A stretch of 64,000 nucleotides of DNA from contig NZ_CP044130.1 in the NCBI RefSeq assembly GCF_009617995.1, positions 159,918-223,917 on the forward strand. The letters run 5' to 3'. The first letter of the stretch is position 1; every line of letters begins with the position of its first letter. This document shows positions 6,628 to 31,556 of the stretch, piece after piece. The translations under genes were made by a program, and so were the position numbers. Under the pieces are notes generated by a model. The model was not told where the DNA came from. It saw only the letters and a list, made by a program, of their open reading frames with translations, and searched no databases. This stretch comes from Halomicrobium sp. LC1Hm. GTDB lineage: Archaea > Halobacteriota > Halobacteria > Halobacteriales > Haloarculaceae.

Positions 6628-6708
6628 CATACTGCCGGCTGTCACTTCGTGACGATCTTCGGCCACCCCGGGGTGGCGAAATCGTTCACAGACGTACAGC
6701 CGGTCGTA

Positions 6709-14099: not shown

Positions 14100-14500
14100 C
14101 GGCCGGTGATCGCGTGCGCACGCGCCAGGCCGACCCGCTGTTGTTGCCCGCCCGAGAGGGTCTCGGGCGCTCTGTCGGCGAGTTCGGCGATGTCGAGTAG
14201 CTCCACAGCTCTGTGGCGCGGTCCCGTCGCTCGGCCTTCTCGACGCCCTGCATCTTCGGACCGAACGCGACGTTCGCGAGGACGCTCATGTTGTCGAACA
14301 GCGCGTACGACTGGAACACGAGCCCGACGTTTCGCCGCTCTGGGGGGACGTGGGTCACGTCCTCGTCGGCGAATCGGACCCGGCCGGCCGTCGGCGTCTC
14401 GAAGCCGGCGATCGTCCGCAGCGTCGTCGTCTTGCCACAGCCCGACGGCCCGACGACGCCGAGGATCTCGCCCTCGGCGACGGTCAGATCGACTGTCTCG
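14100..14500 (-). pseudogene. ABC transporter ATPase remnant, truncated and frameshifted
   Basis: Directly behind the proA stop codon, the minus strand encodes ETVDLTVAEGEILGVV then Walker A GPSGCGKTTT, then THVPPERRNVGLVFQSYALFDNMSV with the Q-loop. A one-base shift near 14205 moves the frame, after which MELLDIAELADRAPETL and the signature SGGQQQRVGLARAHAI follow. The Walker B half is missing and the sequence dissolves after about 14100. About 20 codons of the 5' end are also absent, replaced by the proA 3' end. It resembles polyamine/iron/sulfate-type importer ATPases. It is non-functional. Confidence 0.75.
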
Positions 14501-17532: not shown

Positions 17533-17886
17533 TCACGCGGTGTACTGTTCGACGAGCGACCGTAGCTCGTCTTCGCCCTGGACGCCGACGATCTCTTCGA
17601 CCTGCTCGCCGTCGGCAAAGAGGACGAGCGTGGGCACGCCGCGGACGCCGTAGGCCGTCGCGAGCTGCTGGTTCTCGTCGACGTCGACTTTCGCCACGGC
17701 GGCGTCCGTCTCGGCCGCGAGGGCCTCGACGACCGGTTCGAGCATCTGGCAGGGGCCACACCAGTCGGCGTAGAAGTCCGCCAGGACGACGTCGTAGTCT
17801 GCGACTGCGTCGTTCAGCTCGGACTGTCCGTCGACGTGTACTGGCTCCGTCGGCGCGCTGGCATCCGTTTCGATATCGGTTGTCAT
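17533..17886 (-). CDS. trxA: Thioredoxin (CGPC)
   Basis: 117 residues from ATG 17886. The thioredoxin fold has the redox site DFYADWCGPCQMLEP (Cys43, Cys46), the cis-proline in GVRGVPTLVLFADG, and a short acidic extension before the domain. It reduces protein disulfides or persulfides in the cytoplasm. ATG 17886 is chosen because upstream codons enter the promoter, which carries the GTATTGTTTGGTAC element at 17928-17941 and a CTCTTAAC TATA. The shared promoter element suggests it belongs to the sulfur regulon that follows. Confidence 0.9.
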   Translation of the reverse strand: MTTDIETDASAPTEPVHVDGQSELNDAVADYDVVLADFYADWCGPCQMLEPVVEALAAETDAAVAKVDVDENQQLATAYGVRGVPTLVLFADGEQVEEIVGVQGEDELRSLVEQYTA

Positions 17887-17927
17887 CACTCCATCGTAGG
17901 TGGCTCTCGTAGTTAAGAGTTTTGGAC

Positions 17928-17941
17928 GTACCAAACAATAC
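17928..17941 (-). promoter_or_regulatory. Sulfur-regulon element A (thioredoxin promoter)
   Basis: On the gene's strand it reads GTATTGTTTGGTAC, then GT, CCAA, A and ACTCTTAAC as TATA. The layout (14-mer, 2 nt, CCAA-like, 1 nt, TATA region) recurs at 20206, 25008, 29015 and 18542. Confidence 0.55.
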
Positions 17942-18089
17942 TGCTGGCAGGCCCAGTCAGCCGACGACGGGCTGTCGCACTCTCTCCGGCACGTGCGACT
18001 CGGGAGCACGAATCCGGTGAAAATCCACAGCAGGCAGTCTCAGCGGGAGGGGCGTCGCGTGGCGGGGTCGGGGCTGTCGAACCGGGGGC

Positions 18090-18494
18090 TCAGCCCTCGA
18101 CCGACGGCGCTGTCGCGTCGCGATCTTCGTACTTCGTCTCGAACTCCTGGATGAGCTGGCCCATCTTCGCGTACCAGTCGTTGAGGAGCCGCTGCATGTC
18201 GTCCGCGATGTTCGCGGGGTCGGTCGGTCTGTAGACGTGGTAGTAGCCTCCTTGGTCGTAGTTGACCTGTTCTTTCTGGATGAATCCGGACTGGAGGAGC
18301 CGCTGTACGGCCCGGTACGCGGTCGAGCGTTCACGGTCGACGGCGTCTGCGATCTCGTCGACGGTGAGCGCGTCCTCGGTGTCGACGAGCGACTGGAAGA
18401 CCTCTCGATCGAGCTGTTTGAGTCCGTGGAAACACTCCAGAAGCCCCTCACACTCCATGTCCCGCTGAAGCTGTTCAGACATCGAATCTGGCAT
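18090..18494 (-). CDS. TrmB-like winged-helix regulator of the sulfur island
   Basis: 134 residues if ATG 18494 is used; ATG 18482 and 18509 are alternatives. The TATA CTTTTAAC (about 18523-18530) favours a leaderless start near 18494. A winged helix-turn-helix (LTVDEIADAVDRERSTAYRAVQRLLQSGFIQKE) follows an N-terminal helix, and a C-terminal helix rich in aromatic and acidic residues (DDMQRLLNDWYAKMGQLIQ) probably dimerises. Cys20 or so (DMECEGLLECF has two cysteines) could sense thiols or sulfide. Because it lies among the sulfur genes and carries the same promoter element, I infer it controls them and itself. The TrmB family assignment is moderate. Confidence 0.75.
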   Translation of the reverse strand: MPDSMSEQLQRDMECEGLLECFHGLKQLDREVFQSLVDTEDALTVDEIADAVDRERSTAYRAVQRLLQSGFIQKEQVNYDQGGYYHVYRPTDPANIADDMQRLLNDWYAKMGQLIQEFETKYEDRDATAPSVEG

Positions 18495-18541
18495 CGGTAT
18501 CGAGTACACGTACGGCCTACCGCGTTAAAAGACTTGTGTGC

Positions 18542-18555
18542 GAATTCCACAATGC
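18542..18555 (-). promoter_or_regulatory. Sulfur-regulon element H (regulator's own promoter)
   Basis: GCATTGTGGAATTC on the gene's strand is a weaker match to GTATTGTNNNGTTA, spaced like the others 10-11 nt before the TATA CTTTTAAC. It suggests autoregulation. Confidence 0.4.
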
Positions 18556-18693
18556 CGCACGAACTCCTGCCGGCAGATCGACGGCGTGAGCCAGTGGCGG
18601 ACACCGTGGCTCGTCCGGCTGCCGATCTTGTCTCTTTCGCGAACTATCACCCGGCGGACGGGACCCTTCAGTCTGCACGACGGCCGGCAGGAA

Positions 18694-19812
18694 TCAGGTC
18701 CACTCCGGTTCGAGCGCGTCGAGCAGGCTGTCGATCTCGCTGCGGGTGTTGACCGCGTGGACCGACGCGCGGACTGCGTTCGGTGTCGGCAGAGCGCGAA
18801 CGACGATCCCTCGCGAGGCGAGGCGATCGACCGTCGCCTCGGGGTCGTCGACGTCGATCGTGACGAGTCCCGACTCCGGTTCCGCCGGACTGTGGAGTCG
18901 TTCGTTCGGGACACCGTCGGTCAACTGCCCGGCCAACTCCTGAATCTGGCTCTCGATGCGGCCGACGCCCACCTCCTCGATCACGTCGATCGCCTCGGCC
19001 AGCGCGACGTGTGGCGCGGGGTTCGACGAGCCGACCTCGAATCGCCCCGCGCCGGGTACGAACTCGTATGGATCTGCCGTCGGTGTCTCGACGCTTCGGT
19101 AGCCGACTGTCGCGGGCCTGAGCGATTCTGCCGACGCCCGGTCGACGTAGAGGAAACCACCGCCCCACAGCCCAAGCAGCCACTTGTGACCGGCCGCCGC
19201 GACGGCGTCTGCGCCCCACTGGGCGACGTTCATCGGGAGCTGACCCGGCACCTGTACGGCGTCGACGAGCGCGAACGCGCCGGCCTCGTGGGTGATCTCG
19301 ACGAGGTCCGCGACGGGCAGGCGAGTGCCGTGCGTCCACGTCACGGCACTGAAACACGCGAGTCGCGCGCCGTCGACGGCCGCGGCGAAGGCGTCGCGGT
19401 CGACCCGTCCGTCCTCGGTCTCGACGACGCGAACCTCGACGCCTTCCCGTTCCAGGCGTTGCCACGGGAGCGTCCCGGCCGGATGTTCGAGATCGGTCCG
19501 AACGACCACGTCACCGGGCTGCCAGTCGATCGCGTTCGCGACGGCGTTGATGCCGGCAGTCGTACTCTCCGTGAGCGCGATCTCGGGGGGCGCTGCACCG
19601 ACGAAGTCGGCGACCCGCTCTCGGGTCCGGTCGTAGGCGTCGAACGCCACGTCGTACGGATCGTTTCGAGCGCTCGTCTCGTACTCGTGTCTCCGGACGA
19701 ACTCGTCGGCCGCTTCGACGACGTACCGCGGACTCGGCCCGTGAGCGCCGAAGTTCAGGTAGATGTCCTCGTGCAGGGCGGGCGTGTCGGCGCGAAGTTC
19801 TCTGGGATTCAT
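18694..19812 (-). CDS. Class V aminotransferase, cysteine desulfurase-like
   Basis: 372 residues. The fold-type I PLP domain has LTESTTAGINAVANAI, FSAVTWTHGTRLPV, ALVDAVQVPGQLP and the PLP lysine in AAAGHKWLLGLWGGGF (Lys210). The family contains SufS/NifS desulfurases and isopenicillin-N epimerase-like enzymes. The C-terminal loop (IVVRALPTPNAVRASVHAVNT) lacks the active-site cysteine of SufS, so persulfide formation on a cysteine is not supported; a lyase on a sulfur amino acid is possible. The start follows the thioredoxin-like gene by 15 bp, so both are one operon under element B. Confidence 0.78.
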   Translation of the reverse strand: MNPRELRADTPALHEDIYLNFGAHGPSPRYVVEAADEFVRRHEYETSARNDPYDVAFDAYDRTRERVADFVGAAPPEIALTESTTAGINAVANAIDWQPGDVVVRTDLEHPAGTLPWQRLEREGVEVRVVETEDGRVDRDAFAAAVDGARLACFSAVTWTHGTRLPVADLVEITHEAGAFALVDAVQVPGQLPMNVAQWGADAVAAAGHKWLLGLWGGGFLYVDRASAESLRPATVGYRSVETPTADPYEFVPGAGRFEVGSSNPAPHVALAEAIDVIEEVGVGRIESQIQELAGQLTDGVPNERLHSPAEPESGLVTIDVDDPEATVDRLASRGIVVRALPTPNAVRASVHAVNTRSEIDSLLDALEPEWT

Positions 19813-19827
19813 GTCGTTTTCGATGAA

Positions 19828-20166
19828 TCAGTCGCTATACCGGGCGATCAGGTCGCGAAGTGACTGTTCGCTCTGGCCGCCACGAAGCTGTTTCACCGGC
19901 TGCCCGTCGGCGAACAGGACGAACGTGGGTGTGCTCTGGGCACCGAACTCGATCGCGGTTTCGAGGTTCGATTCGATGTCGATCGTCAGGATCGTCGCAT
20001 CAGTGTCGTTCGCGAGTGCTTCCAGAACCGGCTTCATTCGCTTGCAGGTGCCACACCACTCCGTGTAGAATTCCGCGAGCGCGACGCTACTGTCTCCGAG
20101 GACCGTGGCGATGTCGTCATCACCGAGTGAAACCACGCTGTCCGTCTCCGCTGTCTGTGTCGACAT
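19828..20166 (-). CDS. Thioredoxin-like protein (CGTC)
   Basis: 112 residues, thioredoxin fold with the redox site AEFYTEWCGTCKRMKP (Cys38, Cys41) and cis-proline in GAQSTPTFVLFADG. The Thr in the CxxC pair makes it a variant of ordinary thioredoxin. It precedes the class V aminotransferase in an operon, so it may recycle persulfide or disulfide on that enzyme or on TusA/rhodanese; inferred. TATA ACTATTAAAC and element B are upstream. Confidence 0.88.
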   Translation of the reverse strand: MSTQTAETDSVVSLGDDDIATVLGDSSVALAEFYTEWCGTCKRMKPVLEALANDTDATILTIDIESNLETAIEFGAQSTPTFVLFADGQPVKQLRGGQSEQSLRDLIARYSD

Positions 20167-20205
20167 TACCGGATACTACGCGCTGGCTGTTTAATAGTCT
20201 TGGGC

Positions 20206-20219
20206 TAACTATACAATAC
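20206..20219 (-). promoter_or_regulatory. Sulfur-regulon element B
   Basis: GTATTGTATAGTTA, followed by GC, CCAA, G and ACTATTAAAC (TATA). It is 39 bp from the thioredoxin-like start codon. Confidence 0.6.
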
Positions 20220-20273
20220 AATTGCGCGCGGTCCCCCTCTCGCCGGTGCCAAGAGCGACCGCATCGGTGCTCT

Positions 20274-20900
20274 CTAGCGTGACTCTCCGGTGGCGTGTTC
20301 GCGACCGATCGCGCCTGCAAGCGCCAACAGGTAGCCCAGTCCGTACTGGACATCCGGATCGCGCAGCCCGCGAAGCAATCCGAGGAGACCGACGCGTTCA
20401 GCCGGTTCTCGTTCCGCGCTACCGACACTCTCCAGTAGCGTCTCGATTCCGTCACGAGTATCGTTGTCCGCGGCCGTCTGTGCGACCTCGCCGAGCCCGG
20501 TGCCGGTGGCGGCCAGCGATTTGACCATCTCGTCGTCGAGCGCCGCGGTCGCCAGTGATCCGACCTCCGCCAGTTCCGCCAGTTCGTCGAGCGTTCCGCT
20601 CTCTTGCAGCGCGAGCAGGGTTTCGAGCGCGTCCTGTAGCTCGTCGCCGTTGTCGCCGACGGTCTCGGCCAGCGCGACGGTCTCGTCGGTCGCGAGCCCG
20701 TCTGCGGACTCGACGAGCGTCGATCCCGTCGACGAGAGCTCCCGTACCATCTCGTCGTCGAGGGCGCTCTCACCGAGCGAGAGCACGTCGAGCAGTTCGT
20801 TGACGGCGTCGAGACGTGCCACGAACTCGGCGACTGCCTCTGGATTTTCCTCGATCGCTGCTTCGAGGTCGGGTTGCTCAGTGGCGCGCTCCCCGGACAT
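20274..20900 (-). CDS. DUF1641 protein, partner of SQR
   Basis: 208 residues from ATG 20900; the frame continues upstream but overlaps the SQR gene. The protein is acidic and largely helical, with two copies of LDDEMV(R/K)xLxxTG (near residues 50 and 120), and ends in the DUF1641 block GLLRGLRDPDVQYGLGYLLALAGAIGRE. No catalytic motif is recognised. Genes of this family lie beside FAD-dependent sulfide or formate oxidoreductases and probably act as accessory or membrane-association proteins; this is known context and not a shown function. It starts 2 bp after the SQR stop. Confidence 0.8.
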   Translation of the reverse strand: MSGERATEQPDLEAAIEENPEAVAEFVARLDAVNELLDVLSLGESALDDEMVRELSSTGSTLVESADGLATDETVALAETVGDNGDELQDALETLLALQESGTLDELAELAEVGSLATAALDDEMVKSLAATGTGLGEVAQTAADNDTRDGIETLLESVGSAEREPAERVGLLGLLRGLRDPDVQYGLGYLLALAGAIGREHATGESR

Positions 20901-20902
20901 CG

Positions 20903-22048
20903 TCAGAGCAACCCCCGTGCGGTGAGCCAGTACGCCTCGTTGTACGCTAGCTTCGACCAGTGGAGCTTCTCCGACGGCGGTGCGGGCGCGGGCGGCGTCT
21001 CGTAGTCGAACTCGACGAACGACGCCGCGTCCATCCCCGTTTCGATGAAACACAGCGTCTTGCCGTCGTAGGTCGCCGTCGCCGGCCGACCGCGGATCTC
21101 GCTTGCGAGGCGCTGGCCGACGACGCCGGCCTGGTAGTGGGCGACGCTGCCCGCGTTCGGGACGCCGGTGTCGGCGGTGTCGCCGAGCGCGTAGACGTTC
21201 TCGGCGGCCTCGGCTTCCAGCGTGTGCTTGTCCACGTCGACCCAGCCGTCGTCGCCCAGCCCCGCCTCCTCGATGAGGTCGACGCCGGCGTGGGGCGGGA
21301 TCGTCACGAGGAGGTCGTAGTCGAGTTCGGTCCCCTCCATGGACGTGATCGTCTCCGCCTCCGGGTCGACCGACTCGGCGTTGAAGAACGTCTCGACGTC
21401 GATGTCCCGTTCTTCCATGATCGGACGGGCCCACTCGGCGATGTGGGGATTGCCGTGGACGCGCTGGATCGGATACGTGTACGTGATCTCGACATCCTCG
21501 CGGAGGCCCCGCTCGCGGAGCCAGTCGTCGGCCATGAAGACGAACTCCAGCGGTGCCGCCGGGCACATGTGGGGCGTCCCGACGACGCTCAACACGAGCC
21601 TGCCCTCGGTCAGCGACAGCAGTTCGTCGCGCAGATCGACCGCGCCGGACTCGCTGTAGTAGTCGTGGCCGCCGTCGGCGAGCCCCGGAATCTCCTCCGG
21701 TACGAGCGTCGATCCCGTCGCGAGGACGAGGTGGTCGTACTCGATGGTGTCGTCGCCTTCCATGCTCTCCAGGCGCTCGGCGTCGGTGTCGATCTCGGTC
21801 ACGCGATCGATCCGGATGTCGACCCGGTCGTCGACGAGGTCTTCGAGCGGCCGCCGGCCGTCGTCGGGCTCGCGCTGGCCGAATGGGACGTACAGCCAGA
21901 CCGGCTTGTAGACGTGGTCGGCGTCGTCGTTGATCAGTGTGATCCGCACGTCTCCAGCGTCGAGTTCGGGTTCGAGGCGGTCGGCGAGATCGTTCGCGAG
22001 GACGGACCCACCGGTCCCGCCGCCGACGATGACGACGTGCTCGGTCAT
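20903..22048 (-). CDS. sqr: Sulfide:quinone oxidoreductase-like flavoprotein
   Basis: 381 residues from ATG 22048. The FAD-binding motif is VVIVGGGTGGSVLANDLADRL; YKPVWLYVPFG and the second dinucleotide motif in ATGSTLVPEEIPG follow. Cys162 (GTPHMCPAAPLEF) and Cys333 (KTLCFIETG) match the redox cysteine pair that forms the trisulfide in SQR. The family oxidises sulfide to polysulfide or persulfide at the membrane and passes electrons to quinone. The start overlaps the TusA stop by 4 bp (ATGA), and DUF1641 follows. The order tusA-sqr-DUF1641 suggests that sulfane sulfur leaves via TusA. Confidence 0.85.
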   Translation of the reverse strand: MTEHVVIVGGGTGGSVLANDLADRLEPELDAGDVRITLINDDADHVYKPVWLYVPFGQREPDDGRRPLEDLVDDRVDIRIDRVTEIDTDAERLESMEGDDTIEYDHLVLATGSTLVPEEIPGLADGGHDYYSESGAVDLRDELLSLTEGRLVLSVVGTPHMCPAAPLEFVFMADDWLRERGLREDVEITYTYPIQRVHGNPHIAEWARPIMEERDIDVETFFNAESVDPEAETITSMEGTELDYDLLVTIPPHAGVDLIEEAGLGDDGWVDVDKHTLEAEAAENVYALGDTADTGVPNAGSVAHYQAGVVGQRLASEIRGRPATATYDGKTLCFIETGMDAASFVEFDYETPPAPAPPSEKLHWSKLAYNEAYWLTARGLL

Positions 22049-22281
22049 GCTTTCTCCACGTAGAACTCGTGGTGGTCGTCCAGTTCTTCGACGGCGCGCA
22101 GTTCGTTGCCGGCTTCCTCGGCCCACTCGGGAACGTCGGACAGTGACTGCTCGTTGTCGCTCAGCAGGCGGACCACCTCGCCGGAGTCGGCGCTCCGAAT
22201 GGCTCCGATGAGGTCCATCAGTGGGCCGGGGCAGGCTGCGCCCCTGGCGTCGACGGTTTCGTCGGGTTCCATGTCGGTCAT
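22045..22281 (-). CDS. TusA-family sulfur carrier 1
   Basis: 78 residues. The N-terminal block VDARGAACPGPLMDLIGAIR holds the carrier cysteine (Cys17) in the CPxP motif that defines TusA/SirA proteins. The fold is about 80 residues and acts in the cytoplasm by carrying sulfur as a persulfide. It starts the operon with sqr and DUF1641 by a 4-bp overlap. ATG 22281 is used; ATG 22272 is possible. Element G lies 40 bp upstream in reverse orientation. Confidence 0.9.
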   Translation of the reverse strand: MTDMEPDETVDARGAACPGPLMDLIGAIRSADSGEVVRLLSDNEQSLSDVPEWAEEAGNELRAVEELDDHHEFYVEKA

Positions 22282-22320
22282 AGATCGCTCACAGGTAATC
22301 GTTAGGTCTCGACCGTATTA

Positions 22321-22334
22321 GTATTGCACACCAA
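22321..22334. promoter_or_regulatory. Sulfur-regulon element G, reversed
   Basis: GTATTGCACACCAA on the plus strand, opposite to the tusA gene. It keeps the GTATTG half but diverges after it. The orientation is like element E before the second tusA. Confidence 0.35.
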
Positions 22335-22414
22335 TTCCAAGACTCTGGGAATCCAAAGTTCGGACGGACCCATCATGAGGAAGTCCGGCGACAACGTGGT
22401 CGCGCTGTCAACTG

Positions 22415-23665
22415 TCACTCGTTGGTCTGGGAGTGCCACGTCGCCGGCAGCTGCGTGTAGACGACCGCGTTGTCGACGAGCACGTCGACGGGCACGTACT
22501 CGTCGGGCGCGTGGACCGTGTCTGTGCCGAGCGCGAACTCGACGGTCGGAATGCCCGCGTGTCGGAGTTTCTTGGCGTCGCCACCGCCCGTCGCACTCCG
22601 TCGAAAGATCCGCGTTTCCGTCACGTCCGCCGCCGTCGACGCCACCGCTTCGACGAGCGGGCTGTCGGGTGCCTCGGCGGTGCCGACGCTCCAGGAGACG
22701 TCGGCGATCGTGATACCGTCGCAGCCGGCGACACACTCCCGAATGCCCGCCAGTACGTCGGGCGTGTGGACGCCCGCCGTCAGCCGCACGTCGATCTCGG
22801 CGCGGGCGGACTGTGGGACGCTGTTTATCGCGTCACCGCCCTCCAGGACGCCGAGATTGATCGAGGGGTACCAGAACAGTTCCCGAGCGACGCCTTCGCC
22901 CATCGAGGGGGCGTAGTACTCGACGGACTCTTCGACGATGGCTGCCACGTCCGGATCGATTTCGAGGCGTTGGGTTCCGAACCGCTCGCGCACGGTCTCG
23001 ACGGCCTCGTAGAGCCGCTCGATTGCGTTGACGCCGACGACTGGCCGGGAGCCGTGGGCACCCTCGCCCGCTGCTTCGAGCGTCAGCCAGATGCTCCCTC
23101 GATCTGCGACCGTGACGGAGTGGCGGCCTTCCGCACAGGTCGGTTCGCCGATCACGCAGGCGTCGGCGTCAAGCATCTCTGCGTCCAGTAGCGCAGGCAG
23201 TCCGGCATCGCCGCCGACTTCCTCGTCGCTCACGAAAGCGAACTGGAGGTCGACGGGCGGGGTCGTGTCGGTGGTCACGAACGCCTGTATCGTGAACAGC
23301 ATCGACGCCACGGCACCCTTCATGTCGGTCGCACCGCGGCCGTAGACCCGATCGTCGGCGCGTTCGCCGAGTGGGTCCCGCGTCCACGCGTCGGCGTCGA
23401 ACGGGACCGTATCGAGGTGGCCGTTGTACAGCAGCGTGCGGTCGGACTCGCCCGGAACTTCGACGAGCAGATTCGGTTTCGCTGGATCGACCGCGAACCG
23501 CTCGCTGTCGACCGAAAGGGGGTCGAGGAACCGCTCGATCTCGGCGACGATCTCGCGCGTGTCGCCGGGCGGGTTCGACGTGTCGGCCGCGAGCAGATCG
23601 AGGGCGATCTCGCTCAGCTCCTCGCGATGTGCCCGAACGAACGTCGCGGGTGTCGTGTCGGTCAT
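22415..23665 (-). CDS. M20 family peptidase / deacetylase (ArgE/DapE type)
   Basis: 416 residues. A dinuclear zinc site is visible: His83 and Asp85 in YNGHLDTVPFD, Asp114 in GRGATDMKGAVA, and Glu148-Glu149 in FVSDEEVGG. The dimerisation domain contains the GAHGSRPVVGVNAIERL block typical of ArgE/DapE/CPG2. The family removes acyl groups from amino acids, or cleaves small peptides. Substrate cannot be predicted: no arginine or lysine genes are adjacent. It is 35 bp after the exporter gene on the same strand, so joint transcription is possible, though it has no sulfur-regulon element of its own. Confidence 0.85.
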   Translation of the reverse strand: MTDTTPATFVRAHREELSEIALDLLAADTSNPPGDTREIVAEIERFLDPLSVDSERFAVDPAKPNLLVEVPGESDRTLLYNGHLDTVPFDADAWTRDPLGERADDRVYGRGATDMKGAVASMLFTIQAFVTTDTTPPVDLQFAFVSDEEVGGDAGLPALLDAEMLDADACVIGEPTCAEGRHSVTVADRGSIWLTLEAAGEGAHGSRPVVGVNAIERLYEAVETVRERFGTQRLEIDPDVAAIVEESVEYYAPSMGEGVARELFWYPSINLGVLEGGDAINSVPQSARAEIDVRLTAGVHTPDVLAGIRECVAGCDGITIADVSWSVGTAEAPDSPLVEAVASTAADVTETRIFRRSATGGGDAKKLRHAGIPTVEFALGTDTVHAPDEYVPVDVLVDNAVVYTQLPATWHSQTNE

Positions 23666-23699
23666 GTGTCTGTCTTGGTGTGGTCACCACAAAAACCGG

Positions 23700-24758
23700 C
23701 TAGTCGGCTGTCGACGTCTGCTGACGACGTGTCACGCGCAGTGACGACAGCGCCGTATAGAGGATCGCCACGGCGACGACGACCGCCGCGCCGACGACGA
23801 GCACCAGTCCGAGCAGTTCGAGCGTCGGGCTCCCGACGTAGGACCCGATCTCGCCGACGCCGACGGCAACGGCACCGACCAGCAACATGCCGCCGAAGTA
23901 GATCTTGATGCCGTCGGCGTCGACGACGGCGGTCGCGGCGGAGCCGATACGCGCACCGAGTGCGCTCCCGAACAGCAGCGGTGCGACGATACCGAGGTCG
24001 ACGCCGCCACCCTGTCCGTAGAGGTAACTCCCGAGACCGCCGGAGAAGACGATCTCGAAGAGGTCCGTCCCGACGGCGACGGGCACGGGAACACCGATCG
24101 CGTAGATCATCGCCGGCATCCGGATGAATCCGCCACCGACGCCGAGAAAGCCCGACAGGAGGCCGGTCGCGAAGGCGACGGCCGTGATGACCCACGCGGA
24201 CACGCGGATGTCGCCTCGGAGCGTCACCATCGGCGGAATCCGAACGGTTCGTTGAATCGTTTTTGCGACGTCGGGGATCTCGTACTCGCTGAGGTCCTTG
24301 TCAGCAGCCTCGTGATCGATGCTATCCCCGCCGTCACCGCCCAGGGCGTCACGGGTCACCATCGCCCCGACGCCGCCAAGCAAGACGACGTACGCGACGC
24401 TGATGATCCCACCAGCCAGTCCCAGCGATTCGAGGTAGTAGACGCTGGCGCGCCCGGCCTCGATACCGATGGTCGTGCCGGTAATCATGATCACGCCCAG
24501 CTTGTAGTCGACCTGCCCGAGATCGTGGTGCTTCAGGGTCGCGATGACGGCCGTCCCGAAGACGAACGCCATCCCGCTCCCGACTGCGACGGGCGCAGGG
24601 TAATCGAGCATCAGCAGAGCGGGGGTGACGAGGAACGACCCGCCCATGCCGAAGAATCCGAACAGGACGCCCACGACGAGGCCGAATCCGACGAACAGCG
24701 CGAGCATTTCGGGGCTCGTCCCCAGGATCCCGGACCCGCCGAGCAGGCTATCGAGCAT
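23700..24758 (-). CDS. TauE/SafE family sulfite/anion exporter
   Basis: 352 residues from ATG 24758; GTG 24767 would add three. About eight membrane segments fall in two halves, each beginning with a family glycine motif (FGFFGMGGSFLVTPALLML and SGFLGVGGGFIRMPAM). A soluble acidic loop (residues about 145-190) separates them. Members export sulfite, sulfoacetate or similar anions. In the sulfur island it would remove sulfite made by the persulfide dioxygenase-like protein. The start overlaps the small membrane gene upstream. Confidence 0.85.
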   Translation of the reverse strand: MLDSLLGGSGILGTSPEMLALFVGFGLVVGVLFGFFGMGGSFLVTPALLMLDYPAPVAVGSGMAFVFGTAVIATLKHHDLGQVDYKLGVIMITGTTIGIEAGRASVYYLESLGLAGGIISVAYVVLLGGVGAMVTRDALGGDGGDSIDHEAADKDLSEYEIPDVAKTIQRTVRIPPMVTLRGDIRVSAWVITAVAFATGLLSGFLGVGGGFIRMPAMIYAIGVPVPVAVGTDLFEIVFSGGLGSYLYGQGGGVDLGIVAPLLFGSALGARIGSAATAVVDADGIKIYFGGMLLVGAVAVGVGEIGSYVGSPTLELLGLVLVVGAAVVVAVAILYTALSSLRVTRRQQTSTAD

Positions 24759-24912
24759 TCGTCTCACCCCCCACGAGGAGCTTCATCAGATACGGTCCGA
24801 AGAGCCGTTCGAGACTCCCATAGCCCACGTACAGCACGATCGCCTCCAAGAGGATCGTGCCGATGAGCACTGCCGTTTCGGGGTCCCACGTGGGTATCTC
24901 TAGTCCAGCCAT
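24748..24912 (-). CDS. Small membrane protein (54 aa) ahead of the TauE gene
   Basis: 54 residues from ATG 24912 (MAGLEIPTWDPETAVL), with one strong membrane helix (AVLIGTILLEAIVLYVGYGSLE) and a short charged tail. It overlaps the TauE gene by about 11 bp, so it is cotranslated. Small proteins of this kind occur before TauE/SafE genes in haloarchaea and could be a subunit of the exporter; the role is inferred. A GTTATAGG-like TATA and element C are upstream. Confidence 0.7.
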   Translation of the reverse strand: MAGLEIPTWDPETAVLIGTILLEAIVLYVGYGSLERLFGPYLMKLLVGGETNAR

Positions 24913-25007
24913 CGATTCTCCCTCTGACGTTCGACCGCGGAAATTCGTTGTTGGCACATTTCTGCTCACCTCCCTCTATCCGGTTCGTCCCTATAACGGT
25001 TTTGGGA

Positions 25008-25021
25008 ATACTATACAATAC
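25008..25021 (-). promoter_or_regulatory. Sulfur-regulon element C
   Basis: GTATTGTATAGTAT, then TC, CCAA, A and ACCGTTATAGG (TATA). It differs from element B at two positions of 14. AATACTATA is also directly repeated here (25007-25015 and 25017-25025). It lies 95 bp before the small membrane protein, implying a longer leader. Confidence 0.6.
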
Positions 25022-25219
25022 TATATTCGAGTAACCTTCGCTGGAGTACCGATAACGTATAGAGAACGTATCCCCCTCTCGGCGGCGTTCCAAGCGCAGT
25101 TCGTCGCCTGGACTGTGGCTGTCGCTGTCACACGTTGGAGTGCTCGACCGAGAGCTATCGTAACAATTGAAACGATTGACACACCGATCGCACTGCTGTC
25201 TCGGGTGTGCATTGACTTT
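25022..25219. other. Intergenic stretch, no gene
   Basis: No gene is seen between element C and hairpin repeat copy 2. Confidence 0.5.
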
Positions 25220-25302
25220 CATACTGCCGGCTGTACGTCTGTGAAGAATTTCGCGACCACGGGGTCGCGAATATCTTGAAACAGTGACAGCCGGCAGTAT
25301 CA
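25220..25302. repeat. Nested hairpin repeat, copy 2
   Basis: Outer arms CATACTGCCGGCTGT / ACAGCCGGCAGTATCA are perfectly complementary over 14-15 bp; the inner stem is TTCGCGACC-ACG-GGGTCGCGAA. It lies 52 bp downstream of the PiT permease stop codon, again at a gene 3' end. The inner stem sequence differs from copies 1 and 3 but both sides changed together, so base pairing is conserved. Confidence 0.8.
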
Positions 25303-25353
25303 ATGGCTACTATACTGGGGTGTCTGTCACCGAGGGATATTGTGTCGGCCCTG

Positions 25354-26529
25354 CTACAGCAGCAGGTCCGCGGCGGCGTACGCGAGCACGAACGAGAGGC
25401 CGAACGACCCTGCCCACGCTCCCACAGTCACGAGTATCTTCCGTGCGTCGACCGCGTCGCGTCCGCCGACGGCGGCACCGCTTCCGATGATGGCGCTGAC
25501 GACGATCTCGTTGAACGACACCGGAACGCCCAGCAGGACGGCCAGTTGTGCGATCAGGAACGACGGCACGAGTGCCGAAATGGAGCGTCGCGGTCCCAGC
25601 GAGGAGTAGTCCTGTGCCAGCGACTTGATCATTCGAGGCGCGCCCGTCCACGACCCGGCGAGCATCCCCAGCCCGCCGCCGACGAGCACGGTCATCGTCG
25701 ACACCATCCCGATCTCGTCGAGCAGGGGCAGCAACGGCCCGACGGCGAGGCCGACCTGACTCCCGCCCGCGGAGAAGGCGACGAGTGAGCCCAGCGCGAG
25801 CAGTACGCGCCGCAGGCCGCCGCGTTCGTCACGGCGAATGTCCCACCGGACGACGGCGGCGACGGCCAGCGCGACGACGCCGGTCACGACGAGCCCCGAC
25901 GCGAGGCCGTCCACTGCCAGCACGCGTTGCCCGAGCCCGCGGACCGTCCCCGACGTGGTCCCCTCGCCGAGGAAGCTGAACTCGACGTTCGCGAGGACGG
26001 CACCGACGAGACCGGCGAGGGCCGGGATGCTGTCCCGCTCGGGAACGTCGGGACGGGGCAAGACGCTGGCGATGACGAACGCGATGCCGCCGCCGATGAC
26101 AGGCGTCAACACCCAGACGGCGGCGATCTGCTGGTACTTCGCCCAGACCGGCGTCCCGCCCAGCGCGAGGCCGACGCCGATGACGGCACCCGTCACGGTG
26201 AACGCGGTCGCGATCGGATACCCCGTCGTGATCCCGACCGCCATCAGCCCCGCGCCCAGTACGAGCACGAGGATGACGCCGGCGACGGGCAGACTGATGC
26301 CGCCCACGAGACCGCTCCCGACCGCTTCCGAGACGCTCCCGCCCTGTGTGACCGCCCCTGCGAACCCGAAGATGCCGACCAGAAAGGCGGCCCGCATCGT
26401 CCCGATGGCGTTCGCGCCGACGGCCGGTGCGAAAGGGGTCGCGCCGCTCGATCCGGCACCGATGACCCACGCCATGAACAGGCTGGCGAGCGCTGCACCG
26501 ACGAAGAGAGCGATGAGGGCGGGATCCAT
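25354..26529 (-). CDS. PiT family anion permease
   Basis: 391 residues, almost wholly hydrophobic, with about ten membrane segments in two related halves. Each half has a GAN-type motif (FAPAVGANAIGTMRAAF and the SWTGAPRMIKSLAQDY region), as in the PiT inorganic phosphate transporters. The GANDVANA signature is altered here. Bacillus CysP shows that PiT-fold proteins can move sulfate. Because this gene ends the operon of rhodanese-MBL and YeeE genes, sulfate or thiosulfate is a plausible substrate; phosphate cannot be excluded. The gap to the previous gene is 8 bp. Confidence 0.82.
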   Translation of the reverse strand: MDPALIALFVGAALASLFMAWVIGAGSSGATPFAPAVGANAIGTMRAAFLVGIFGFAGAVTQGGSVSEAVGSGLVGGISLPVAGVILVLVLGAGLMAVGITTGYPIATAFTVTGAVIGVGLALGGTPVWAKYQQIAAVWVLTPVIGGGIAFVIASVLPRPDVPERDSIPALAGLVGAVLANVEFSFLGEGTTSGTVRGLGQRVLAVDGLASGLVVTGVVALAVAAVVRWDIRRDERGGLRRVLLALGSLVAFSAGGSQVGLAVGPLLPLLDEIGMVSTMTVLVGGGLGMLAGSWTGAPRMIKSLAQDYSSLGPRRSISALVPSFLIAQLAVLLGVPVSFNEIVVSAIIGSGAAVGGRDAVDARKILVTVGAWAGSFGLSFVLAYAAADLLL

Positions 26530-26537
26530 GGAACTGG

Positions 26538-26999
26538 TCAGTCCGCGCCCGTTACGGCGGTGTCACGTGCCTGGCTGCGGCTCCGCCAGTATCCCTGAGC
26601 GTACGCGCCCAGGAACATCCCGGCCAGCGCCCAGAGGATCGTGACGTTGCCGACGCCCAGGCTCGCGTACGCGGCACCCGGACAGATGCCCGAAAGCCCC
26701 CAGCCGACGCCGAAGATGGCACCCCCGACCAGGACGTTCCGATCGAACGGCTTCAGGCGACGCTCGTAGCGGTCACCCGTCAGGGGTGCCGCGTCCCGAA
26801 TCCGGGGCAGCAGGGCGAACGCGATCCCGGAGACGATAGCGGCCCCGAACATCACGAACGGGAGGCCGAGGTCGTCGAACTGGAGGAAGTTCAGCACGAC
26901 CTCCGGTCGCGCCATGTGGCTGAACCCGAGCCCGAAGCCGAACACGATGCCGCCGACGAAGATCAGCGGCTTGAACAGCGGGTGGCGGTCGTCGCTCAC
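26538..26999 (-). CDS. YeeE/YedE (TsuA-like) transporter half, short form B
   Basis: 153 residues starting at GTG 26999 (VSDDRHPLFKPLIF). Four membrane segments are seen, with the family cysteine motif WGLSGICPGAAYAS. The YeeE/YedE family includes the thiosulfate importer TsuA, which moves thiosulfate through conserved cysteines; this is a half-size protein and needs its partner, the next gene upstream. In-frame codons continue to 27068, but the added residues are the direct-repeat region and are low in hydrophobicity. It precedes the PiT permease by 8 bp. Confidence 0.82.
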   Translation of the reverse strand: MSDDRHPLFKPLIFVGGIVFGFGLGFSHMARPEVVLNFLQFDDLGLPFVMFGAAIVSGIAFALLPRIRDAAPLTGDRYERRLKPFDRNVLVGGAIFGVGWGLSGICPGAAYASLGVGNVTILWALAGMFLGAYAQGYWRSRSQARDTAVTGAD

Positions 27000-27099
27000 G
27001 TGTCGCTCCCTCCGTTCGCTCCCGTTCGCGTCTGCCGAGGCCTCTCGCTGGTCGGCCTCGCTGCCCACGTGTCGCTCCCTCCGTTCGCTCCCGTTCGCG
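26997..27099. repeat. Two 34-bp direct repeats, 69-bp period
   Basis: A 34-bp unit starting CACGTGTCGCTCCCTCCG and ending CCCGTTCGCG occurs at 26997-27030 and 27066-27099, identical, separated by 35 bp. The first copy contains the GTG start codon of the YeeE-B gene. Sequence of the type GAGCGAACGGGAGC is common low-complexity spacer DNA in haloarchaea. Replication slippage is the likely origin. Confidence 0.8.
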
Positions 27100-27198
27100 C
27101 ATTCCGAGACCCTCGCTGCTCACGGCTCACAGTCGTTCGCCGCTCGCTCTTCGAGGCGCGAACGTAGTGAGCACCTCGCACCGCTCGCGTCTCGCGCA

Positions 27199-27756
27199 TC
27201 ACGGGCTCACCCCCAGCGCTGCGACGACCTGGGCGGTCCCGATGGCGACGGTCAGGAACGTCACCACGCCGACCAGCGACGTCTTCGACGCCGAGCCGAC
27301 GCCGCAGACGCCGTGCCCGGACGTACAGCCCTTGCCGATTCGGGTGCCGATTCCGACGAGGATGCCGCCGAGGAACAGCCGCCACGGCTGCACCTCTGTC
27401 ATCCAGAGCGTCACCCCGGCGACCTCGTACAGCTGGCCGGTCGTCCCGGGTTCGTACAGCGAGCTCGTGACCAGCCCGGACTGGACGGTCGCCGCGAACG
27501 CCAGCCCGCCGAGGATGATGCCCAGCGTGAACACCACGCGCCAGTCCCGTGAGCCGACGTACCGCTGGAACCGCGACTGGTCGGAGACGTACGACAGCGT
27601 CGACTCCAGGAACGTACTCGCCCCGGCTGGGATACCCGTCCCGATGTAAATCAGAACGGTGCCGAGCCCGACGAGCAGTCCGCCGACGGCGTAGCGGCTG
27701 ATCCCGTTGGGAAACAGCTCGGCGGTCACCTGAAGCGCGAGTGGATCAGTCACCAT
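27199..27756 (-). CDS. YeeE/YedE (TsuA-like) transporter half A
   Basis: 185 residues with about five membrane segments. The conserved thiosulfate-path motif GIGTRIGKGCTSGHGVCG holds two cysteines. Together with the short form B it makes a two-part transporter equivalent to a full TsuA. It is 8 bp after the rhodanese-MBL gene in the same operon. The gap to the next gene is 200 bp of low-complexity sequence with direct repeats, so B may be expressed separately. Confidence 0.85.
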   Translation of the reverse strand: MVTDPLALQVTAELFPNGISRYAVGGLLVGLGTVLIYIGTGIPAGASTFLESTLSYVSDQSRFQRYVGSRDWRVVFTLGIILGGLAFAATVQSGLVTSSLYEPGTTGQLYEVAGVTLWMTEVQPWRLFLGGILVGIGTRIGKGCTSGHGVCGVGSASKTSLVGVVTFLTVAIGTAQVVAALGVSP

Positions 27757-27764
27757 CGCCCGCC

Positions 27765-28958
27765 TCAGTCATCCGCCAGCGAGCCCTGGCTGGCGGCGCA
27801 GTTGTTCGGGCCGAGTTCGAGCGTGAACGCCTCCTCGTCGTCGACGGCGTTCTGTCCGAGGTTCGTCGCGATGATCTCTTCGTAGTTGGCCGGACGGGGC
27901 GGCATGTCCGAGAGGATCAGGTCGACGAAGTCGTCCTCGTCCATCGTGAGCGCGTCCATCTCGGCGACGAGCTCGCCGATGGGCGCGGTGTAGGTGCCGT
28001 CGTCGGCGGGCTCGGCGGCGTCGCTGAAGTGCGCGCCCCCGATTAGCGTGTCGTCGGGCAGCGTCAGCACGCGCTCCTGCAGGGATTCGTAGAGCATGCG
28101 CGCGGCGTCGGGCGCGCCGTCGTCGCCCTCTTCGAGGTCGGGGCGGGCGACGCTCTCGACGAACAGCCCGTCGCCGGTCGCGAGCAGGCTGTCGTCGATC
28201 AGATACGAGGTCATCCCGGTCGTGTGGCCGGGCGTGTAGACGGCCTCGATGGTGGCGTCGCCGACCTGGAAGGTGTCGCCGTCCGCGGCAGTGGTCAGCT
28301 CGTCAGCGTAGGTGACACCGCGGTCGACCGCGGCCTCGGGGATGACGCCCTCGACGCCCTCCGCGTCCAGATTCCGCACGCCCGAGATGTGGTCGGCGTG
28401 GATGTGGGTGTCCAGCGCGTACTGCAGGTCGACGCCGAGTTCCGCGGCGTCCGCGAGGTAGCGGTCGGTGAACGCCCGCAGCGGGTCGATAATTGCGGCT
28501 TCGCCGTCGTCGTACAGCAGGTAACCCAGGCAACCCGAGGAGGGTCGCTGGTACTGCAGGAGCGTGCCCGCGCCGTCGTAGCGCTCGACCTCGACGGCCT
28601 CGTAGATGCTCGCCCAGCCGTTCATCCCGTCTTCGAGGTGGTCCACGTCGTAGCCCTGTTCGACGAGCGTGCCCGCGACGTACTCGCTGGCACCCCCCTT
28701 CGCACAGAGGACCGTCACTTCGCGGTCGTCGGGGATCCGGTCGAGCACGCTGTCGTCGATCTCGTCGTCGAGGAACTCGAAGTACGGGACGTTGATCGAC
28801 GTGACGTTCTCGCCGTCGATCCGCCACTCCTCGTAGTCCGATTGCATGCGCGCGTCGAGGAGCGTGACGTCCTCGCCGTCGTCGATTCGATCCTTCAGCG
28901 TCTTCGGTGCGACGCTCGAAACGTCTGCGTCCGGGGTCGGAAAGTCTTCGGCGTTCAT
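27765..28958 (-). CDS. Rhodanese-metallo-beta-lactamase protein, persulfide dioxygenase-like
   Basis: 397 residues from ATG 28958. An N-terminal rhodanese domain (about 15-125) has the active cysteine in VTVLCAKGGAS (Cys85); the C-terminal metallo-beta-lactamase domain (130-330) has THIHADHISG (His185-His190), TPGHTTGM and GDGLFVESVARPD, as in ETHE1/BlaRH-type persulfide dioxygenases. It would take sulfane sulfur and oxidise persulfide to sulfite in the cytoplasm. The order (rhodanese first) differs from PRF proteins with rhodanese last. It leads the operon with both YeeE halves and the PiT gene. Element D is upstream. Confidence 0.88.
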   Translation of the reverse strand: MNAEDFPTPDADVSSVAPKTLKDRIDDGEDVTLLDARMQSDYEEWRIDGENVTSINVPYFEFLDDEIDDSVLDRIPDDREVTVLCAKGGASEYVAGTLVEQGYDVDHLEDGMNGWASIYEAVEVERYDGAGTLLQYQRPSSGCLGYLLYDDGEAAIIDPLRAFTDRYLADAAELGVDLQYALDTHIHADHISGVRNLDAEGVEGVIPEAAVDRGVTYADELTTAADGDTFQVGDATIEAVYTPGHTTGMTSYLIDDSLLATGDGLFVESVARPDLEEGDDGAPDAARMLYESLQERVLTLPDDTLIGGAHFSDAAEPADDGTYTAPIGELVAEMDALTMDEDDFVDLILSDMPPRPANYEEIIATNLGQNAVDDEEAFTLELGPNNCAASQGSLADD

Positions 28959-29014
28959 GTCGTACACCCTCAGCTATTGGGTCGATGCACAAAAGGGTTT
29001 GCAAAGAAATTCAC

Positions 29015-29028
29015 TAACTACACAATAC
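29015..29028 (-). promoter_or_regulatory. Sulfur-regulon element D
   Basis: GTATTGTGTAGTTA on the gene's strand, 56 bp before the rhodanese-MBL start codon, with an AT-rich region following. Confidence 0.55.
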
Positions 29029-29121
29029 AGTACTCCGAGAAGGAGAGCAAAAAGCTGTTGAAAGCCATTCAACGGTACTTTGTGAGCACCCATATCTATA
29101 TTCGACCACACAGACTGTTGC

Positions 29122-29175
29122 AGTACGCACAATAACCAACATTCTTTTAACCCCGAAGGCGGTATTGTGCGATAG
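29122..29175 (+). promoter_or_regulatory. tusA2-dsrE promoter with elements E and F
   Basis: Element E at 29122-29135 (AGTACGCACAATAA, the reverse of TTATTGTGCGTACT) is followed by CCAAC and TATA TTCTTTTAACC at 29141-29151. Element F (GTATTGTGCGATAG) at 29162-29175 lies between TATA and the start codon, where binding would block transcription. A pair flanking TATA suggests two-way control. Confidence 0.5.
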
Positions 29176-29206
29176 CTCCAATACGAATCAACGGAGCAGA
29201 TACACT

Positions 29207-29452
29207 ATGAGTGCTGAATTCGACATCGCAGAGACGCTCGACGTGAAAGGTGCATCGTGTCCCATGCCAGTGGTGAAAACGAAGTCCGCTATCGACGACC
29301 TCTCCGAGGGTGACGTCCTCGAAGTGCTGGCGACGGACTCCGGCAGTATGAGCGACATCGACGGCTGGGCCTCCGGAACCGAGGGCGTCGAGCTGCTCGA
29401 CCAGGCGGAAGGCGACGACGTGTACAAACACTACGTCCGCAAGACGGAGTGA
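29207..29452 (+). CDS. TusA-family sulfur carrier 2
   Basis: 81 residues from ATG 29207. TLDVKGASCPMPVVKTKSAI has the CPxP carrier motif (Cys18). The fold and size match TusA/SirA. It is followed 2 bp later by the DsrE-like gene. A TusA-DsrE pair is a known sulfur-transfer module; the two would hand sulfur to one another. It differs from TusA1 enough to suggest a distinct partner. Confidence 0.9.
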   Translation: MSAEFDIAETLDVKGASCPMPVVKTKSAIDDLSEGDVLEVLATDSGSMSDIDGWASGTEGVELLDQAEGDDVYKHYVRKTE

Positions 29453-29454
29453 CG

Positions 29455-30027
29455 ATGAGCACGGACACGCCAGACGCGCCCGGCGACGAGACGCCCTCTC
29501 GCGCGGAACTCGCCGCGCGCGTCGACGAACTGGAAGACGCGCTCGCCGAGGCCACCAGCGAGGACGACGGCAAGAAGATGAGCATCATCGCCACCAAGGG
29601 GACCCTGGACATGGCGTACCCGCCGCTCATCCTCGCCAGCACTGCCGCCGCGTTCGGCTACGAGGTGACGGTCTTTCACACGTTCTGGGGGCTGGAGATC
29701 CTCCACGAGGAGCGCTCGAAGGACCTCAAGCTCAGCTCCGTGGGCAACCCCAACATGCCGGTCCCGAACGCCGTCGCCGCGCTCCCCGGAATGGACCGCG
29801 TCACGACGAAGATGATGGAGAAGAAGATCGCGGACAACGACACCGCCACCATCGAGGAACTCATCGAGACGAGCCTCGACATGGGCGTGGAGTTCCAGGC
29901 CTGTCAGATGACGATCGAGCTGATGGACTACGACGAATCGGAGTTCTACGACGGCGTCACGACCGGCGTCGGCGCTGCGACGGCGCTACAGGACATGGCC
30001 GATGCCGACATCCAGCTTCTCGTCTGA
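29455..30027 (+). CDS. DsrE/DsrF-like sulfur relay protein
   Basis: 190 residues from ATG 29455. An acidic N-terminal coiled-coil-like helix (SRAELAARVDELEDALAEAT) precedes the DsrE domain: KKMSIIATKGTLDMAYPPLILASTAAAFGYEVTVFHT and the conserved cysteine in GVEFQACQMTIELM. Such DsrE/DrsE proteins carry sulfur in sulfur oxidation and tRNA thiolation. It is coupled to tusA2. The protein also has the GMDRVTTKMMEKK stretch typical of the peroxiredoxin-like DsrE subgroup. Confidence 0.85.
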   Translation: MSTDTPDAPGDETPSRAELAARVDELEDALAEATSEDDGKKMSIIATKGTLDMAYPPLILASTAAAFGYEVTVFHTFWGLEILHEERSKDLKLSSVGNPNMPVPNAVAALPGMDRVTTKMMEKKIADNDTATIEELIETSLDMGVEFQACQMTIELMDYDESEFYDGVTTGVGAATALQDMADADIQLLV

Positions 30028-30040
30028 CAGCGCTACTGGT

Positions 30041-30090
30041 TTAGGCTAACCTAAGGATGGAAACCGTTTTGTAACATTAGGCTAGCCTAA
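30041..30090 (+). promoter_or_regulatory. Two DtxR/Idr iron boxes
   Basis: TTAGGCTAACCTAA (30041-30054) and TTAGGCTAGCCTAA (30077-30090) are near-perfect palindromes matching the DtxR-family iron box and the motif known for haloarchaeal Idr regulators. Their centres are 36 bp apart. The second ends 6 bp before the start codon and overlaps where transcription would begin. Iron-loaded repressor should switch this gene off. Confidence 0.85.
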
Positions 30091-31283: not shown

Positions 31284-31556
31284 CTGCTATCCGATTCGGC
31301 GCTCACCTCGACCGTGGCCGTCGAGCGCGTGCCCGAGCACGCTGGGTGGTCGGGCTACTCGCGCTGTCTGTCGTCTGGCACAGCGGTTGTGCTGAGAGTG
31401 AGGCCGCTCGCAGCAGGCCACGGACCGTAGCGTTTTGTCTCCGGGGTTCAACTGTCAACCATCCATGTCCACGTCAGGTACGCTCGACGTTCGTCGTCGC
31501 CACTTCGTCTCGCCCCGCCACGACGCAACGACCTGCGGTTCACTCGCCGGTTGCTG
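31284..31556. other. Gap between iron-binding and Bat-like genes
   Basis: No gene, hairpin or recognisable operator was seen in this 270-bp stretch. Confidence 0.5.

Follow-up and report, generated by a model that had tools for sequence, protein, structure and literature searches.

A sulfur-promoter inverted repeat and its candidate winged-helix regulator in Halomicrobium sp. LC1Hm

The sulfur island and its promoter repeat

In this study, we analyzed a 64,000-nucleotide stretch of the Halomicrobium sp. LC1Hm genome (hereafter the window, with a G+C content of 64%; the source genome comprises 3.33 Mb in two contigs). It carries a 12.5-kb island of sulfur-handling genes, a mirror-image DNA repeat that lies at or beside presumed core promoters, is concentrated in this island and is conserved among haloarchaea, and the gene at 18090-18494, which encodes the candidate regulator. 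The initial annotation had placed eight AT-rich words near promoters in this island, and scans with Pfam and NCBIfam models identified the downstream genes as it had named them:

17533-17889, minus strand: thioredoxin gene (PF00085; TIGR01068 above its cut-off)
18090-18494, minus strand: candidate regulator, a TrmB-type single winged helix of 134 residues with Cys15 and Cys21 (PF01978)
18694-19812, minus strand: SufS-like cysteine desulfurase family (class V aminotransferase) gene (SufS model below its cut-off)
19828-20166, minus strand: thioredoxin-like gene (PF00085)
20903-22048, minus strand: type III sulfide:quinone reductase-like (SQR) gene (NF049943 below its cut-off)
22045-22281, minus strand: tusA1 gene (PF01206)
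23700-24767, minus strand: TauE/SafE sulfite exporter gene (PF01925)
24748-24912, minus strand: DUF7512 gene, first in the TauE operon (PF24352)
25354-28958, minus strand: rhodanese-MBL gene, two YeeE/YedE-type transporter genes and a PHO4/CysP-like permease gene (Pfam and NCBIfam scans)
29207-30027, plus strand: tusA2 and dsrE2-like genes (NF047629 match below its cut-off)

All eight words were recovered by exact search, at 17928, 18542, 20206, 25008, 29015 and 29122 on the minus strand and at 22321 and 29162 on the plus strand. The proposal that they constitute a shared element holds insofar as the words are real and common, but they are just the left halves of a longer unit, TAGTATTG-N11-CAATACTA, a mirror-image dyad of about 27 bases whose right half contains the CCAA that had been described separately. 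This dyad is the common unit of the promoters. Its individual sites and the related elements are as follows, where a composite match refers to the pattern TATTGT-N9-CCAARAC:

17917-17943, minus strand: thioredoxin dyad CAGTATTG-N11-CAAAACTC (3 mismatches; composite match)
18534-18552, minus strand: regulator-promoter variant TTGTG-N9-CACAA, followed by TTTTAA (kept in relatives)
20195-20221, minus strand: thioredoxin-like dyad TTGTATTG-N11-CAAGACTA (2 mismatches; composite match)
22319-22345, minus strand: tusA1-SQR dyad GAGTCTTG-N11-CAATACTA (2 mismatches; same place in relatives)
24997-25023, minus strand: TauE operon dyad TAGTATTG-N11-CAAAACCG (3 mismatches; composite match)
29004-29030, minus strand: degenerate rhodanese-MBL dyad CTGTATTG-N11-AATTTCTT (exact word search; class consensus)
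29118-29132, plus strand: second element before the tusA2 core promoter, TTGCAGTACGCACAA (TTG-N9-CAA; block kept in relatives)
29160-29186, plus strand: tusA2 leader dyad CGGTATTG-N11-CAATACGA (3 mismatches)
29175-29197, plus strand: leader hairpin GCTCC/GGAGC over a Shine-Dalgarno-like GGAG (arm-swap tests)

At the thioredoxin, thioredoxin-like and TauE promoters, the right half sits on the presumed B recognition element (BRE). The rhodanese-MBL dyad stops just upstream of its presumed BRE, and the word GTATTGTGTAGTTA found there has a poor right half in the window (AATTTCTT, 4 of 8 positions matching). At tusA2, the dyad begins 9 bases past the AT box TTTTAA (29145-29150) and would overlie the expected transcription start. 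The further copies noticed around the tusA genes, GTATTGTGCGATAG and GTATTGCACACCAA, indeed lie within full dyads at tusA2 and tusA1-SQR; the gene-proximal half is the better one at tusA1-SQR, a promoter with no assignable TATA. Of the two remaining words, TTATTGTGCGTACT is part of the additional TTG-N9-CAA element before tusA2, located where Haloferax has a second N11 dyad, and GCATTGTGGAATTC, before the regulator gene, represents the conserved variant with other spacing.

According to the initial annotation, occurrence at many non-sulfur promoters or absence from relatives would refute the shared element. On the first of these preset points, the full dyad with up to three mismatches occurs at only 8 places in the 3.33-Mb genome (reversed control: 0), five of which lie inside the island (thioredoxin, thioredoxin-like, tusA1, TauE and tusA2); the rhodanese-MBL site is not among the eight because it is too degenerate. 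The composite pattern is found at exactly three places, the thioredoxin, thioredoxin-like and TauE promoters, every one in the island (control: 0). The variant TTGTG-N9-CACAA occurs once in the genome, at the regulator promoter (reversed control: 9). Within the window, GTATTGT appears 6 times versus 1.4 expected, a count reached in none of 100 shuffles, and four of the seven genomic places of the short word RTATTGTNNNGTWN fall within the island. The extra places of this short word were taken as chance (L001, intergenic; L002, before a subtilisin-like gene as judged by eye; L003, intragenic).

The arrangement proposed earlier, in which the word is followed by 2 nt, CCAA, 1 nt and TATA, stands in its first part at the thioredoxin, thioredoxin-like and TauE promoters, but the spacing to the AT box is 3-6 nt rather than 1. 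When the composite was searched with a single base separating CCAA from TATA (up to three mismatches), the window yielded two places, neither of them a named site, against 0.24 expected.

Conservation of the repeat in Halobacteria

To examine conservation, we compared the upstream regions of 80 named loci with a regulator homologue, the best 80 of 280. Relatives carry the motif before the corresponding genes, namely thioredoxin, thioredoxin-like, TauE, rhodanese-MBL and both TusA operons. The conserved blocks in the 80 loci include tAGTATTGT-n-CCAAAAC-n-TTA at TauE and thioredoxin, tAGTATTGT...AAYTACTATGCAAA...CTT at rhodanese-MBL, GTATTGTGCGnTAGCTCCAATAC at tusA2 and ATTGTG...CACAAgTCTTTTAAC at the regulator. 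In an earlier spacing test, the tusA2 anchor had forced the gap and the thioredoxin (trx) and TauE anchors had nearly done so; the test was hence repeated unforced, with TATTG sites, at least 6 of 8 right-half matches and all gaps from 3 to 24. Gap 11 was the top gap in the tauE (15/53), trx (17/60), thioredoxin-like (trxL, 5/5), rhodanese-MBL (28/51) and tusA2 (42/55) sets. The simpler pattern ATTG-N11-CAA was found in trx (40/48), tauE (41/48), DUF7512 (21/25), trxL (5/5) and tusA2 (46/50) regions, but neither before the operon-internal genes tested (PHO4 0/40, SQR 0/11, DUF1641 0/16 and yeeE1 0/49) nor before M20 (0/3). A CAA at gap 21 in 35 of 48 rhodanese-MBL regions corresponds to the presumed BRE. 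In coding orientation, none of the 11 tusA1 regions contains ATTG-N11-CAA; tusA1 sites surface only in a two-strand search (15 rows) because their better half-site lies on the other strand.

A position weight matrix (PWM) trained on TauE promoters alone was scanned over the 1.49 Mb of the 80 loci. Among its top 100 matches, 82 fall in the 350 bp preceding an island gene, 44 belonging to the training class and 38 not, and the reversed PWM gave 3 matches at the same threshold. The top 260 include 165 such matches versus 24 for the control. We then extended the search to 391 Halobacteria genomes, of which 273 contain the strict dyad and 200 the composite; the reversed patterns produced only 7 (dyad) and 10 (composite) matches in total. 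All of 30 automatically chosen composite loci are located before trx, tauE/DUF7512, tusA2 or trxL, and 21 of 30 automatically chosen dyad loci are beside sulfur genes, a number to which tusA relics (33-59%) contribute four and a 46% match one. A further dyad sample omits a single place and all those showing the word AGCTCCAATA of the tusA2 leader. Among the matches listed, 108 dyad rows (107 distinct places) include 72 beside listed genes (tusA2 38, tusA1 15, Usp 11, rhodanese-MBL 4, DUF302 3 and trxL 1). The 14 Usp and DUF302 rows are not independent because these genes joined the query list once dyads had already been noticed next to them, and without them the number is 58 of 108.

Several observations accompany these sites. 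DUF302 genes with a dyad or composite just upstream (L010 11968-12382, L155, L178 and L180; Pfam matches for L010 and L178 only) are likely further regulon members. Usp genes with a dyad-like site were found at L026 8456, L046 8360, L075 8399, L098, L099 and L102 (Pfam match for L026 only), some of them divergent from tauE. In L103, L108, L109, L117 and L118, dyads persist at position 1500 beside apparent decayed tusA remnants, which lie upstream of a conserved gene of 232 residues. As judged by eye, the dyad rows without a listed gene include tusA relics and the L101 dyad, which accompanies a molybdopterin oxidoreductase gene with a rhodanese-like neighbor. L052 contains a second, diverged island copy (11856-14872) with its own regulator (60%) and TTG-N11-CAATACTA before its rhodanese-MBL gene.

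In 14 Haloferax genomes, where the regulator gene adjoins DUF7512-tauE, TTG-N11-CAA is present at the regulator promoter (14/14), at DUF7512-tauE (14/14) and twice at tusA2 (14/14), and TATTG-N11-[AG]AC[TG]AC, a pattern composed after viewing these promoters, is present at rhodanese-MBL in 11/14; other gaps match in at most 2/14. Therefore, the code seems to hold in Haloferax even though its letters drift, and there the promoter of the regulator gene belongs to the N11 class as well. In two of the 14 Haloferax regulators, a TGA was read within the match. Seven Haloferax composites were also examined: L151-L153 and L156 share a transposase-like gene flank (by eye), L154 and L157 precede a Trk-like gene, and L155 precedes the DUF302 gene mentioned above.

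These data also bear on whether the repeats have no dedicated regulator and simply reflect a shared core promoter (BRE/TATA) or the copying of promoters within the island. The overlap of the right half with the presumed BRE at three promoters would fit such an explanation. Nevertheless, the tusA2 dyad lies downstream of the AT box, and the dyad is rare in the genome, absent before the tested operon-internal genes and kept at N11 across genera, which makes this explanation very improbable. Likewise, CCAA as a BRE only was rejected as the whole explanation because the tusA2 dyad is away from the BRE and the rhodanese-MBL right half, AAYTACTA at gap 11, precedes its BRE.

The candidate regulator and competing readings

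The 18090 gene product consists of a lone PF01978 winged helix (59.1 bits) without a sugar-sensing domain, and its closest named homologue is from Halomicrobium katesii (98%). All 96 homologues, which reach down to 59% identity, have Cys15 and Cys21, and at least 92 of them share the recognition helix RERSTAYR. The Sta1 (73.9 versus a cut-off of 80) and Lrs14 (39.6 versus 90) NCBIfam models both scored below their cut-offs, and there was no ArsR model among the Pfam and NCBIfam matches. OxsR (HVO_2970) of Haloferax volcanii, a TrmB-type single winged helix of arCOG02242, functions in hypochlorite stress and is reported to activate or repress depending on site position (PMC9426492). The same source describes HVO_1360, a small TrmB protein with C15 and C21 (28% identity with OxsR), as a possible partner of OxsR, and MM_1094, whose disulfide-forming C17 aligns with OxsR C24 (PMC9426492). 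In our alignment, C21 of the regulator stands opposite C20 of chain 3r0a, which is probably C17 of MM_1094 once a presumed tag offset is allowed for; with that offset, C21 occupies the OxsR C24 position. The 18090 regulator is probably an orthologue of HVO_1360, and through it probably a member of the same arCOG as OxsR (arCOG02242): its homologue in H. volcanii DS2, P0123, shares both cysteines, as an HVO_1360 orthologue should, and we infer that P0123 is HVO_1360.

The best reading of the sequence data is that the 18090 regulator probably reads the dyad, given its linkage and co-occurrence with the sites, the conserved variant at its own promoter and its relation to OxsR. The regulator family was detected in 374 of 391 genomes (E 1e-30) and DsrE in 342. 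In the 17 genomes without the regulator, dyad, composite and dsrE are all absent (0/17 each), with hypergeometric values of 2.8e-17 for DsrE, 6e-10 for the dyad and 3.5e-6 for the composite, all inflated by common descent. Among 49 dsrE-less genomes, a set partly obtained by difference between the regulator and DsrE searches, a dyad or composite occurs in 14 of 32 with the regulator versus 0 of 17 without it (P 0.0008, which relatedness inflates). Site neighborhoods were inspected in eight of these 14 genomes, and among them are sites beside rhodanese-MBL, tusA1, DUF302 or Usp genes (L182, L214, L217, L178, L180 and L201).

One competing reading is that another transcription factor reads the dyad and the 18090 protein is merely a regulon member or a partner, for example with OxsR. 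The different spacing at the regulator promoter is consistent with it, as are the joint loss of the regulator and its target dsrE, which keeps co-occurrence from separating reader from target, and the presence of a GAF/BAT/HTH_10 protein encoded at 31551-34418 of the window. HVO_1360-OxsR heterodimers have also been proposed (PMC9426492). On the other hand, sites persist in 14 of the 32 dsrE-less genomes that retain the regulator. Of the 80 loci, 60 have tauE, rhodanese-MBL or dsrE in the same stretch as the regulator gene, 67 contain one or more of eight island genes and 13 contain none; in all 14 Haloferax genomes, the regulator gene is 4.3-4.6 kb from dsrE. The OxsR motif, moreover, is CG-rich, unlike the dyad. 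We consider another reader unlikely. On balance, we favor by a modest degree the interpretation that the words are halves of one inverted-repeat operator, common to five sulfur/thiol promoters and weaker at a sixth, and likely bound by a dimer of the 18090-18494 regulator.

A number of results weigh against this interpretation. In the own genome, three of the eight dyads lie outside the island on the other contig (L193, L194 and L195), with no sulfur gene recognized at them. In its strict form, the dyad is absent from 118 of 391 genomes, 101 of which have the regulator, and among the matches listed, 36 of 108 dyad rows have no listed gene nearby; these include all nine strict-dyad matches examined in Haloferax, which lie away from sulfur genes. 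In dsrE-less genomes, the sites L101, L179, L181 and L209 are beside no recognized sulfur gene. Only 12 of the 17 regulator-less genomes reach 90% completeness with contamination of no more than 5%, and since these 17 also lack dsrE, target loss alone could explain the absence of dyads. The DUF7512 set ties in the unforced spacing test (2/30 at gap 11 and 2 at gap 5). At the regulator promoter, CAA is at gap 13 in 47 of 82 regions and at gap 11 in 21 of 82, none of 7 TATTG sites has a good right half, and the mean score is weak. Finally, the structure model is poor (predicted local distance difference test score 61, residues 6-24 below 50), so that the cysteines cannot be placed.

Regarding the mechanism, a regulator dimer would bind the dyad and probably also its own promoter through the variant with altered spacing. 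Reactive sulfur (sulfane sulfur or persulfide), a signal suggested by the target genes and the cysteines, would modify Cys21, together with Cys15, on the N-terminal dimer helix and thereby switch DNA binding. Because the dyad lies over the presumed BRE at three promoters, abuts it at rhodanese-MBL and is near the expected start at tusA2, a repressor is favored, as repression is a single mechanism that could cover all dyad positions: the bound protein would block transcription factor B (TFB), TATA-binding protein (TBP) or polymerase, and reactive sulfur would release it. Activation where the site lies upstream, as for OxsR, is the main alternative for the sign of control. The derepressed genes would move sulfur via TusA/DsrE, SQR and rhodanese-MBL, and TauE would export sulfite.

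It may also be that the regulator binds the dyad and responds to general oxidants such as hypochlorite, like OxsR, rather than to reactive sulfur. Its probable membership in the OxsR arCOG via HVO_1360, with a cysteine at the same position, and the two thioredoxins among the targets agree with this. Most of the remaining targets, however, resemble genes for sulfur transfer, sulfide oxidation and sulfite export, and the regulator has a second invariant cysteine, C15; a general oxidant sensor thus appears improbable, and sensing of reactive sulfur by the regulator remains our preferred reading.

The tusA2 leader, neighboring features and known systems

The 5' arm of the tusA2 leader hairpin, GCTCC, lies inside the tusA2 operator and pairs with GGAGC before the start codon, and the spacer of this dyad is better conserved than those of the other classes. 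Of 77 tusA2 leaders, 66 contain a complement of 4 nt or more, and the arms covary between genera, with pairs such as GCTCC/GGAGC, ACTCC/GGAGT, GCCC/GGGC, GTCC/GGAC and CACC/GGTG. Because the short arms were misaligned by MAFFT, arm-swap tests were used. When each arm type was represented once, 5 of 12 matched versus 9 of 132 mismatched combinations paired (permutation P 0.0014). In a looser set of 87 leaders, which includes a few from tusA1, the best-stem score was 11.25 for matched arms versus 8.51 for swapped arms (maximum of 9.18 in 300). The leader repeat may instead be an inverted repeat acting in DNA. An Rfam search returned a single sub-threshold match, taken as chance.

Other features were noted in passing. 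The PHO4-family gene at 25354-26529 matches the CysP sulfate permease model far below its cut-off, and it may transport sulfate or thiosulfate. The stretch at 25200-25300, which lies between the operons of TauE and PHO4, has an inverted repeat CTGCCGGCTG...CAGCCGGCAG that encloses an inner palindrome, CGCGACCACGGGGTCGCG (25252-25269); it may be dispersed because ATACTGCCGGCTG is also found at 6629. Two palindromes, TTTAGGCTAACCTAA (30040-30054) and TTAGGCTAGCCTAA (30077-30090), are located upstream of the gene at 30096 and presumably resemble iron-regulator boxes. Elsewhere in the genome, the 3-mismatch dyad L193 (C1:1122990) lies in the opening codons of what by eye is a cydA-like gene; sulfide resistance is a known property of cytochrome bd.

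Among known systems, bacterial sulfane-sulfur repressors such as SqrR, BigR, CstR and SoxR/sHdrR are cysteine sensors that control SQR, rhodanese, dioxygenase, TusA and TauE genes. The logic predicted here is alike, whereas those proteins belong to the ArsR or CsoR families and act at promoters of bacterial RNA polymerase. The SurR motif differs from the dyad. SurR of Thermococcales is likewise an archaeal sulfur-responsive thiol switch (PMC9426492), but it is of the ArsR family, with another fold, which the 18090 regulator does not share, and other targets. The regulator resembles OxsR in its single winged helix, in an N-terminal cysteine at the matching place and in sites beside BRE/TATA (PMC9426492). 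It differs in having two invariant cysteines, an AT-rich dyad and sulfur targets, compared with one cysteine and the CG-rich CGGnCGnGCG in OxsR; the element shared by the island promoters is TAGTATTG-N11-CAATACTA and not the OxsR operator. HVO_1360 has the same C15 and C21, and its homologues in the 14 Haloferax genomes are the regulators that adjoin DUF7512-tauE near dsrE; in the accessible text of the source, it is named just as a possible OxsR partner, without motif or regulon (PMC9426492). No described regulator of haloarchaeal sulfur handling was found in searches of an open-licence literature collection.

In a broader and more tentative proposal, which we regard as rather doubtful, the two-cysteine winged-helix protein would be a class-wide sulfane-sulfur sensor of Halobacteria and the first archaeal persulfide switch with a TrmB fold, its N11-dyad regulon would comprise TusA, DsrE, SQR, rhodanese-MBL, TauE, thioredoxins, DUF302 and Usp, and the tusA2 bases would double as an operator and as an mRNA arm covering the ribosome-binding site. 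Independently of the regulator, the tusA2 hairpin suggests a second, RNA-level control. If true, the reading would extend the thiol switches known to respond to reactive sulfur by one more fold and one more DNA code, and since the named operator, gene and target list are valid in Haloferax, it could be put to a direct genetic test in a model archaeon.

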